Source: Methanobacteriaceae archaeon (lineage in GTDB: Archaea > Methanobacteriota > Methanobacteria > Methanobacteriales > Methanobacteriaceae). From it: a stretch of 64,000 nt of DNA. The first letter of the stretch is position 1; each line of letters begins with the position of its first letter. Shown in pieces: positions 32,698-38,084 of the stretch. Location: assembly GCA_029219465.1 (NCBI GenBank), contig JAQXTL010000004.1, forward strand, positions 434,001 to 498,000, in the 5' to 3' direction. A program made the position numbers and the translations under genes. The notes under the pieces were generated by a model, which was not told the origin of the DNA, searched no databases, and worked only from the letters and a program-made list of their open reading frames with translations.

Positions 32698-33429
32698 CTA
32701 TAATTTTCTTGCAAATACCATGTATCCGCTGTGACCAACCATACGTGTTTTTGGTCTTACACCTTGAGGTCTGACTTCAAGACCCCTTTCTAAAATTTCA
32801 ATAATTTCAATATCGTAAAATCCTACTTTTTTAGCGATACGATAGGAAATTTCAGCTTGGTCAATATAAGGTGCATAAACAGCCAACCATCCTCCGACAT
32901 TTAAAGAGTCCATAACATCTTCAAATATTTCAAAAGGCTTTGGCAAATCTAAAAAGACCAAATCGATTTTATCTTCATCGATTCCGTCCTTAATGTTTTT
33001 GTTTTTAACATGAATATTAGTAATTCCAAATCTTTCAATGTTTTTTTGAGCAACCTGTGCAAAGTCTTCTCTGATTTCGTAGGTAAATACATCACCATCA
33101 GGACCAACAACATTTCCAAAGTTAAGAGCAATAGCTCCAGCACCAGTACCTGCGTCAATTACACGTGATCCAGATCCTAGTCCAGTATGAGCTAATACTA
33201 ACCCAATATCTTTTTTAAGAAGAATAGAACATCTTCTATCCATTATATCTATAAAGTCATTGATATTAGGTTTCATAATTTTAAATGTGTGGTCTAAATG
33301 ACTTTTAACCTCTTCACCAATTTCTGCACTGTCCAATACTTCTGCAGAAACAATTCCCAAATCGCTTTGGAAATCTTCTCCAGGTTTTAAGACGTATTTT
33401 TTACCACGTTCATCTAAAATCATCTTCAT
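32698..33429 (-). CDS. trmI: tRNA (adenine(57/58)-N1)-methyltransferase
   Basis: SAM-dependent methyltransferase forming m1A at positions 57/58 of the T-loop. The 243 residues consist of a small N-terminal beta domain (about 1-65) and a Rossmann methyltransferase domain with motif I VIDAGTGAGAIAL, an acidic motif II (YEIREDF) and motif IV DLVFLDLPKPFE. The C-terminal EVRPQGVRPKTRMVGHSGYMVFAR is typical of TrmI/Trm61. The ATG shares one base with the htpX stop (TAATG), so the two genes are coupled. Confidence 0.93.
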   Translation of the reverse strand: MKMILDERGKKYVLKPGEDFQSDLGIVSAEVLDSAEIGEEVKSHLDHTFKIMKPNINDFIDIMDRRCSILLKKDIGLVLAHTGLGSGSRVIDAGTGAGAIALNFGNVVGPDGDVFTYEIREDFAQVAQKNIERFGITNIHVKNKNIKDGIDEDKIDLVFLDLPKPFEIFEDVMDSLNVGGWLAVYAPYIDQAEISYRIAKKVGFYDIEIIEILERGLEVRPQGVRPKTRMVGHSGYMVFARKL

Positions 33430-34385
33430 TATTGTAACTCCGCTAATTTCTTAACTCTTTTTAATGAATCTGGGTGAGTAGATAACAATTCCATAATACC
33501 GTTTTTCTTTGAGATTGTGATTTCTGAGTTTGCAAGTCTTCTTAACTCTTCATCAGATATTTTTCCATCACCGTCAAAGTCAAGTTGTTGGAAATCATGA
33601 ATATCATTAGCTGCATTACCAATATCATTTACAAAGAATGCTCTTCCTGAATTTACATCATCAATTGTTTCTTTACTGCAGTTTGAAGCACCGTAGGATA
33701 ATTTATAAAGTGCAGATGCTAATGCTGCAGGACGGTTTCCAAATTCAACACTAGCTGCATCAGCATAGTATTCACGAGTTCTTGAGATGAATAAAACTAA
33801 CAATTGACCTAATATGTAGAATACATAACCAAGAATACCGATTATGATTGCTGCACCATTATCATTGTCTCTTGAAAACATAAAAGATAGTGCAATGTAG
33901 TAACAAATCATTGGAATAACACTAACAGCAGCAGTAACAATCATATCATTGTGTTTGATATGACCCATTTCGTGACCAAGAACTGCTTTTAACTCATCTC
34001 TGTCAAGTAATCCTAAGATAGGGCGGGTAATTGCGATGTGTCCGCTTCTGCTTGATCTACCATATGCAAATGCATTTGGAATTGCAATTTCAGATAAACC
34101 TACTTCAGGTTTTGGAATTCCAGCTTCAGCAGCTAATTCTTGAACCATTTGATGAATGTGAGGTGCTTCAGCTTCAGACAGTGGTCTTACATGCATTGAA
34201 CGTTTTACTAAACTTGGTCCAAACCAGTATTGTAAGAATACAATAATTAAGCTCACTCCACAGTATAATTTCCAACTAGCTATGCCCAAATATAATCCTA
34301 CGAGCATAATAAGGAAATATACAATGGAAAACATTACAACAAATGTAAGAATCATTCTTAACTTAAGTTTCCATGTATTTTTCAT
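33429..34385 (-). CDS. htpX: HtpX-type zinc metalloprotease with an EF-hand-like insert
   Basis: M48-family membrane protease for quality control of membrane proteins. 318 residues: two N-terminal helices (about 11-55), the zinc motif HEMGH (138-142), two further helices (about 150-200), and the third zinc ligand Glu205 in SRTREYYADA. Unusually, between the protease core and the usual STHPDSLKR end there is an insert with the loop DFDGDGKISDEE (269-280), a canonical EF-hand calcium loop followed by a helix (LRRLANSE). The start is ATG with an AGGTG site. It heads a two-gene unit with trmI. Confidence 0.92.
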   Translation of the reverse strand: MKNTWKLKLRMILTFVVMFSIVYFLIMLVGLYLGIASWKLYCGVSLIIVFLQYWFGPSLVKRSMHVRPLSEAEAPHIHQMVQELAAEAGIPKPEVGLSEIAIPNAFAYGRSSRSGHIAITRPILGLLDRDELKAVLGHEMGHIKHNDMIVTAAVSVIPMICYYIALSFMFSRDNDNGAAIIIGILGYVFYILGQLLVLFISRTREYYADAASVEFGNRPAALASALYKLSYGASNCSKETIDDVNSGRAFFVNDIGNAANDIHDFQQLDFDGDGKISDEELRRLANSEITISKKNGIMELLSTHPDSLKRVKKLAELQ

Positions 34386-35480: not shown

Positions 35481-37043
35481 ATGTTATGGACTGATAAATA
35501 CCGACCACAGGAATTAAGCGCAGTGGTAGGTAACACCAAAGAAATCAAAATAATCAAAGATTGGGTTAGCGCTTGGAAATCAAATGACCCTCAAATACCA
35601 CTACTTCTAGTTGGTCCACCAGGTATTGGAAAAACAACCTTAGCACAAATCATTGCTAAAGAGTTTTCAGAGCATATTGAGCTTAATGCAAGTGATAAAC
35701 GTTCACAGGACGTTATTAAAAGAACAATTGGTGAATCATCATCTTCAAGATCCCTTTTTGGAGATGAATACAAATTAATTATCATTGACGAAGTAGACGG
35801 ACTTCATGGAACTAACGACCGTGGAGGAGTTAGAGCTATCGGAGAGATAATTAAAAATTCAAAACATCCAATGATTTTAATAGCTAATGATTTCTACTCA
35901 AAAAGATTACAAAGCATTAAACCAAAATGTCAAGTAATTAAAATGAAAAAATCCAGATGGAATTCCATTGCTAAGCTTTTACGTGAAATAGCTCAAAAAG
36001 AAGGAGTAGATGCAAATCCAAAAGCACTAAAAGAAATTGCTGTTAAATCTCAAGGGGACGTTAGATCTGCTATTAATACTCTTCAGGCACTTTCAAGTAA
36101 AGATGAACCTCTAAACATGGAAGAAATAGCAAATATAAAAACAAAGGACACACGTTCTGATATTTTCAATGCTATAACTGGAGTACTTAAAAGTAAAACC
36201 CCAGCACATGTTAAGGAAGCTCTTTGGATTGAAGAAGACCCTACATTAGTCATGGAATACATTGCAGAAAATATTCCTCGCGAATATAAGAAAAAAGATG
36301 AAATCAAAAAAGCTTATGATTACATCTCAAAAGCAGATGTATTCTTTGGAAGAACCCAGAGAAGCAGAAACTATGGTTACTGGAAATATGCAACTGACTT
36401 TATGGGAATCGGAGTAAGTAACTCAAAACACGAAACCTATAAAAAGTTTACAAAAATCCAAACTCCAACTACATTTTCATTAATGAGTCGTAACAGAGCA
36501 AAAAGAAACCTAAGAGATGAAATTGCTAAAGATATAGGTAAAAAATTACACATATCCCGTGCAGTAGCTATTTCAATGTTCCCATATCTTGAAATAATGT
36601 ATAAAAATGATGAATTAGCTTGGGAACTTTCAGAGTTTTTTGGATTTGAAGACGATGATACTAAAATCAAAAGATTCAGATCAAGAAAAATTCCTAAAAA
36701 AGTAGTTACTAAAATGGAGAAACGAAAAGCTCAAATGATAGTTGAAGAACGTGACAAACGTGTTGAAGAGCTTGAAAATCAGATGATGAATATTGTAGGA
36801 AGAATTGAATCTTCACATGATAATGATTCTTTAGACTTCTCTGAAGAAGAAGCTGTTTTAGAACCAGAAGTTGAAACGGTAGAAGAAGAAATTACTCTAG
36901 AAGAACCTAAAACAGAAACTATTGAAGAAGAAGTTTTAAAACCAGAAGTTGAAGAGAAAAAACCTAAAAAAGAAAGAAAGAGAAAACCTAAAAAAGAAGA
37001 AAAAAAGAAAACTGACAAACAAGTTTCATTGCTCAGTTTCTAA
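35481..37043 (+). CDS. rfcL: Replication factor C large subunit
   Basis: Large clamp-loader subunit, 520 residues. AAA+ core with Walker [11 protein letters not shown] and Walker [11 protein letters not shown], no SRC box as expected for the large subunit, a collar domain, and a long acidic then lysine-rich tail (from about residue 445). The last residues KQVSLLSF fit a PIP box (Q, L and F spaced as QxxLxxF) for PCNA binding. The final 18 bp, coding SLLSF and the stop, overlap the 3' end of the convergent rhuM gene. Confidence 0.96.
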
Positions 37044-38084
37044 TTTACTAATTAAATTTTTTGTTTCTTCATCAAATTTGTTAAAATCTGATTTGAAAAA
37101 TTTATCTTGAATCGGTTTGAATTTTTCATATTCTAATTTAACAAATTCATCAACTTCTTCTCTTGAAATACTTCCCTTACCTTCCAAAACATGATATTCA
37201 TAAAATTCTAAAAATTTATCTAATTTTTCAGCCCAACTTTTCATGCTTATAGGAATTTTTCTTTCAGCCCTATCTTCTGCATAATCCAAATACATACTAA
37301 CAACACGATTAAGAGTTTTTAATTCATCATGTGTTAGATAATTTTTAGCAACTTTCACATCACTTAAAAAAATTTTTCCATCTGGAGATTTTCTCCAACT
37401 TGTTAGACCCACATGTTCTTTAGTAGAATCTGCCCTTTCACGAATCAATTCAGGTGCAGTTAAGCCATAAACAGCAAAATGAAGCTTATTTTGAACTTTA
37501 GCATAAAAATCACGAGTTATTTCTGCATTTTTATTATAATCATATGAAGTAGCAAATAGATCTGTGACTTTTTCATAAACTTTTCTTTCAGACGACCTAA
37601 TATCCCTAATCTCTTCAAGTAACTCTTCAAAATACACATCAGTAAATCTTCCACCATTTACCAATACTTCCTTATTGAGGACATAACCTTTCCTCATATA
37701 TTGCTTTAAAACGCCTCTAGACCATTTACGAAACTTTGTTGCTTCTTTAGAGTTTATCCTGTATCCAATTGATATAATGGCATCAAGATTATACCATATT
37801 TGAGGCCTACCCCTTGTATTAGATTTTTGTAAGAATTCCTTACTAAATTCTAAATCATCTTTAAATAACTCTTTAGATGATATAGATACTTCATTTTCTT
37901 CAAGCTCACCTTCAAACACTATATTAGAAAAATGCATAGACATATTTGAGCCAGTAGTTCCAAAAATCTCTGAAACAACCTTTCTACTAGCCCACAACAT
38001 ATCATCACCAATTATAAATTTGCCTTCAACTGCACCCTCATCACTTTGGTATAATAATGTTTCAACAAGTTCCTACTTAACCAT
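37026..38084 (-). pseudogene. RhuM family protein, interrupted by an amber codon at position 4
   Basis: The N-terminal part of the RhuM family, first noted in a Salmonella pathogenicity island and often mobile, binds DNA-like targets; its function is unknown. The natural start is ATG 38084 with an AAAGGTG ribosome site, but codon 4 is TAG (38073-38075). After it the frame continues ELVETLLYQSDEGAVEGKF, matching the family, then the conserved EIFGTTGSNMSMHFSNI, YNLDAIISIGYRINSK and FRKWSRGVLKQYM to the stop, about 352 codons in all. ATG 38000 with GGTGATG before it could give a truncated product of 324 residues. No mobile-element ends seen. Confidence 0.8.

Follow-up and report, generated by a model that had tools for sequence, protein, structure and literature searches.

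An EF-hand loop next to the active-site plug motif of HtpX-like membrane proteases in archaea: conservation, distribution and a possible link to calcium

The presence of a canonical EF-hand loop within a zinc metalloprotease raises two questions: whether the loop is a genuine EF-hand, and what a bound metal might do for the protease. The locus lies in a window of 64,000 nucleotides (the whole stretch of DNA that was analysed, positions 434,001 to 498,000 of contig JAQXTL010000004.1, assembly GCA_029219465.1) from a Methanobacteriaceae archaeon; all coordinates below refer to this window. The htpX-like gene occupies 33429..34385 on the minus strand and codes for an M48B zinc metalloprotease of 318 residues that contains the EF-hand. 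Its Peptidase_M48 domain scores 158 bits in Pfam (cut-off 20.3). The cut-offs of the NCBIfam HtpX equivalogs are missed, the best model being NF002669 (202 bits versus 341); the NF002322 score is also low (153.7 bits against a cut-off of 275), yet its alignment spans residues 5-316. The protein is HtpX-like and lies outside the named NCBIfam equivalogs, and a family search found one protein of this type in the genome.

The catalytic elements were located in an alignment of 70 HtpX proteins. The zinc-binding HExxH motif is HEMGH at residues 138-142 (33960..33974, minus strand), where H138, E139 and H142 are invariant. E205 (33771..33773, minus strand), within an SRTREYYAD motif and invariant in all 70 proteins, is the expected third zinc ligand by comparison with E201 of BepA (PMC7950410). 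The HPx4R motif of the active-site plug is HPDSLKR at residues 304-310 (33456..33476, minus strand); T303, H304 and P305 are invariant and R310 nearly so, the plug role being taken from published work (PMC7950410). Like the bacterial HtpX proteins of MEROPS M48 subfamily B (E. coli and its homologues), the archaeal protein carries HExxH, the Glu zinc ligand in SRxREYxAD, HPx4R, and both N-terminal and central hydrophobic helices; unlike the bacterial homologues examined, it is extended by 45 residues, which include an EF-hand, in the stretch from the Glu ligand to the HP plug. Judged by its sequence, it is a membrane protease of the HtpX type (M48B), with a putative role in quality control.

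The 12-residue loop, DFDGDGKISDEE (residues 269-280), is encoded by the minus strand of 33546-33581, the plus-strand translation not giving DFDGDGKISDEE, and was assigned from the translation, Pfam and conservation. It has the form D-x-D-x-D-G-x-I-S-x-x-E, with ligands at positions 1, 3, 5 and 12, Gly at 6 and a hydrophobic residue at 8, and matches the PS00018-style pattern. Pfam EF-hand_5 scores 33.2 bits over residues 262-284 (cut-off 25.9), the EF-hand_1 and EF-hand_6 scores fall slightly under their cut-offs, and a profile of the HtpX family hits calmodulin chains in the EF region (E ~4e-7). As in calmodulin-type EF-hands, a 12-residue loop is combined with flanking helices; the difference is that here the EF-hand is single, unpaired and embedded in a protease. 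EF-hands usually, if not obligatorily, occur in pairs, and this protein has one loop.

A fortuitous resemblance to an EF-hand loop has to be considered at this point. In a proteome of 500,000 residues with this composition, chance alone would yield the PROSITE-style pattern about 2.8 times, and a bare match is therefore weak evidence; the chance of a match in one protein of 318 residues is about 0.0017, or 8e-5 for the strict DxDxDG form. Against a chance origin stand the Pfam score above the cut-off, the helices predicted on either side of the loop, the loops that occupy the same site in other archaeal lineages, and above all the orthologues. Among 110 HtpX orthologues from Methanobacteria, position 1 is D in 109, position 3 is D or N in all, position 5 is D or N in 109, position 6 is G and position 8 is I, L or V in all, and position 12 is always acidic (103 E, 7 D), while synonymous codons have turned over at these conserved positions. 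Positions 2, 4, 7, 10 and 11 are free to vary, and L281, the first residue after the loop, is invariant. Entropy averages 0.28 bits over the six EF positions and 1.54 bits over the other positions in the stretch (permutation p = 3e-4, which is indicative, since the sequences are related). The ligand positions are under strong purifying selection. It is this conservation, and not the bare motif match, that makes the EF-hand real; the 110 orthologues refute a chance motif in practice, and we give that explanation next to no weight.

The initial annotation had described, without naming the minus strand, a canonical EF-hand loop with all ligand positions in HtpX, a description borne out by the Pfam match and by the orthologues, and had proposed an alignment of related proteases, with absence of the loop from close relatives as the outcome that would speak against it; in the 110 orthologues the loop is kept. 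Broken ligands were found in only two of them, L105 (D1 to Y) and L106 (D5 to K), natural mutants that may be of use. The EF loop is present in every Methanobacteriaceae genus with a full-type match; outside this set are g26, whose HtpX is a different one, and g31, which gave no match. The loop is also found in the remaining families of the order and the class. In one record (L048, genome G047), htpX is seemingly split over two frames, by a frameshift or a sequencing error.

The HtpX loop is the sole EF-hand_5 match that a family search found in this genome. The genus was sampled in 41 genomes. In 37 of them there is a single EF-hand_5 match, at the htpX positions; two have extra matches in another protein, and the last two match neither EF-hand_5 nor this htpX. 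Two genomes of the genus encode an additional EF-hand protein, about 221-223 residues long (G034:C1:22342-22527 and G011:C1:110621-110686).

The archaeal insert covers roughly residues 259-295 (33501..33611, minus strand), as delimited by an alignment gap in bacterial-type HtpX and by the spacing of E205 and H304. The third zinc ligand and the His of HPx4R are 99 residues apart here (E205-H304) and 54 in E. coli HtpX (E222-H276), a difference of about 45 residues that the alignment attributes to the insert, and the plug His comes 24 residues past the end of the loop. Because the insert sits between E205 and HPx4R, the EF-hand is placed by the sequence in the segment leading into the active-site plug. 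In E. coli BepA, an M48 protease that shares the motif, H246 of HPx4R is the fourth zinc ligand and is situated on this plug; a role as plug has been described both in BepA and in the M48 family, and movement of the His is needed for activity (PMC7950410). BepA differs in being periplasmic, in having a TPR domain and in lacking an EF-hand, and the plug is predicted, by analogy, to work in HtpX as it does in BepA.

An AlphaFold2 model (seven sequences in the alignment, mean pLDDT 77.5) supports a helix-loop-helix arrangement with moderate confidence. The E-helix comprises residues 255-268 (33582..33623, minus strand; block pLDDT about 78-81) and the F-helix residues 278-286 (33528..33554, minus strand), including the invariant L281; the helix that had been noticed after the loop from the sequence alone is thus also predicted in the model. 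The C-terminal 87 residues folded alone gave a pLDDT of 49.5, too low to be informative, and that model was set aside. A structure search with the full predicted model retrieved Ste24/HtpX folds and no separate EF-hand match. The best matches, at E 2e-5, were to Ste24/ZMPSTE24 (M48A), which differs from the present protein in being an intramembrane CAAX protease and in its large chamber, and for which, to our knowledge, an EF-hand has never been reported.

For bacteria, the comparison covered E. coli K-12, four aligned plasmid homologues and three insect-symbiont HtpX proteins. The HtpX proteins of E. coli K-12, Streptomyces, Chroococcidiopsis, Ponticoccus and Georgenia show a gap at the exact site in the alignment, and the three insect-symbiont proteins likewise lack the insert; the earlier statement that bacterial HtpX has no such loop holds for the bacterial proteins examined. 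The same gap is seen in two haloarchaeal HtpX proteins and in the g26 protein, and L052, L053 and L055-L057, which are short HtpX proteins from other archaea, also have no EF insert.

PROSITE-matching EF loops are present at the same HtpX site in Odinarchaeia and Jordarchaeia. The phylum of G051 contributes about ten sequences and that of G054 a single one, and the phylum of G060 is also represented; these loops were collected by combining an EF-type query with a permissive loop pattern, such that the counts denote presence and not frequency. All 34 of the listed distant loops match the PROSITE pattern (a few are duplicate records), and loop and THP are 19-23 residues apart in them, a range that also covers Methanobacteria. 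In two genomes from the phylum of G060 (L241 and L265), HtpX contains a tandem pair of EF loops, DLDGNGVLDKHE(I/M) and DL(D/N)(K/Q)DGRLDGHEL, 21 residues apart and ahead of THP. The same-site loops across Methanobacteria and other archaeal lineages rule out a quirk of one genome, and the EF-hand appears to mark a broad archaeal HtpX subfamily that is not peculiar to this archaeon. A scan of viral contigs found no viral carriers of EF-type HtpX.

The distribution within archaea is nevertheless uneven, as several related lineages have kept the protease and are missing the EF loop. Genus g26 (L118-L126), probably Methanosphaera, has in place of the EF type a short HtpX of bacterial type, which lacks the insert. 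In family f6 (L179-L183), the loop 'SYYLDLHISEKE' is unchanged in length and in its I-S-E-x-E part, yet D1, D3 and G6 are gone; it is apparently a decayed EF-hand. In a tree from which the insert was omitted, the EF state switches at least five times; one origin, with all EF proteins in a single clade, is rejected (AU p = 0.005), so that losses, several gains or transfer must have occurred. In view of the decayed loops, an ancestral EF-hand with repeated loss is the simplest reading; several gains or transfer are possible alternative histories.

What, then, does the EF-hand do? The loop very probably binds metal. Glu at EF position 12 favours Ca2+ over Mg2+, and the predominance of Glu at this position (103 of the 110 orthologues) counts in favour of Ca2+ as the ligand. 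The genome encodes a protein of the Na+/Ca2+-exchanger family, suggesting that cytosolic Ca2+ can be held low, and the protease domain of HtpX has been described as cytoplasmic (PMC9263693). Since the insert adjoins the plug motif, a concrete mechanism can be put forward for the calcium-dependent control that the initial annotation had suggested: Ca2+ would bind the loop in the cytoplasm and rearrange the E and F helices, and this rearrangement would move or lock the plug, such that proteolysis would become sensitive to calcium. A damaged membrane that lets Ca2+ in, for example, could activate HtpX. What has been observed is the motif, how it is conserved, where it lies and the predicted helix-loop-helix. 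The proposal that Ca2+ binding positions or releases the HPx4R plug and makes proteolysis Ca2+-sensitive is a less certain step than metal binding; it is the explanation we favour, and we consider it an even call.

Several points count against calcium control of the plug. A lone EF-hand as a rule binds weakly when it has neither a second EF-hand nor a partner to pack against, and this protein contains no second loop. The missing loop in related lineages in which the protease persists also argues against it, and since g26 (probably Methanosphaera) lives with the short HtpX, calcium control is dispensable in that genus. The seven-sequence AlphaFold2 model may be regarded as a further weakness of the plug-control reading.

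The main rival is a permanent structural Ca2+ (or Mg2+) site that staples the 45-residue insert and stabilises the protease, with no regulatory change in how the site is occupied; this has a substantial chance of being correct, somewhat below even, and is nearly as likely as plug control. One EF-hand with a complete set of ligands is typical of structural sites too, and the ligand-less loops of L179-L183 persist at the same length, which indicates that the segment is useful without metal. On the other hand, the predominant Glu at position 12 would suit a switch, as would the neighbourhood of a mobile plug, a location that a pure staple would not need.

Alternatively, the helix-loop-helix could be a docking surface for a substrate or a partner (an adaptor or an oligomerisation contact), with calcium merely shaping it. 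The insert runs into the active-site plug, EF-hands commonly bind helices, and the variable non-ligand positions would suit differing partners; but the most conserved positions are the metal ligands and not a surface patch, and the neighbourhood offers no apparent partner gene, consisting of housekeeping functions (RFC subunits, TrmI and LeuRS). We rate docking as improbable. Downstream of htpX lies a gene for a GCD14/TrmI-type tRNA methyltransferase (32698..33429, minus strand; Pfam GCD14, 104 bits), and the htpX stop overlaps the trmI ATG (TAATG, 33429-33433). Because of this overlap the two genes are probably co-transcribed. The order rfcS-htpX-trmI is kept in nearly all of the genus loci checked, and the neighbours of htpX give no hint of calcium biology. 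Beside the RFC genes, a minus-strand ORF (37026-38000) matches the RhuM family (Virulence_RhuM, 317 bits) and is possibly of mobile origin.

A full-text search of the open-licence literature for an EF-hand in HtpX or M48, or for Methanobrevibacter HtpX, returned nothing relevant. A review of archaeal membrane proteases mentions HtpX and not calcium (PMC9263693). Work on how calcium systems evolved covers bacterial EF-hand fusions, with a fusion to HtpX unmentioned in the parts consulted (PMC7016017). Databases very likely already list the EF-hand match in HtpX through automated PROSITE or Pfam annotation.

Little is documented about calcium signalling in archaea, and here an EF-hand occupies the same spot across several archaeal phyla, beside a plug proposed to regulate all M48 proteases. 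Two questions thereby become testable in one protein: whether archaea have an intracellular Ca2+ signal, and how HtpX is switched on and off. Natural controls are at hand: one genus of the family lacks the insert, and in some lineages the loop has degenerated. A calcium-gated membrane protease widespread in archaea, through which the quality control of membrane proteins would respond to cytosolic Ca2+, is on the present sequences a tentative proposal, with the odds slightly against it. If true, it would represent an output of archaeal calcium signalling in genomes with no EF-hand protein detected besides HtpX.
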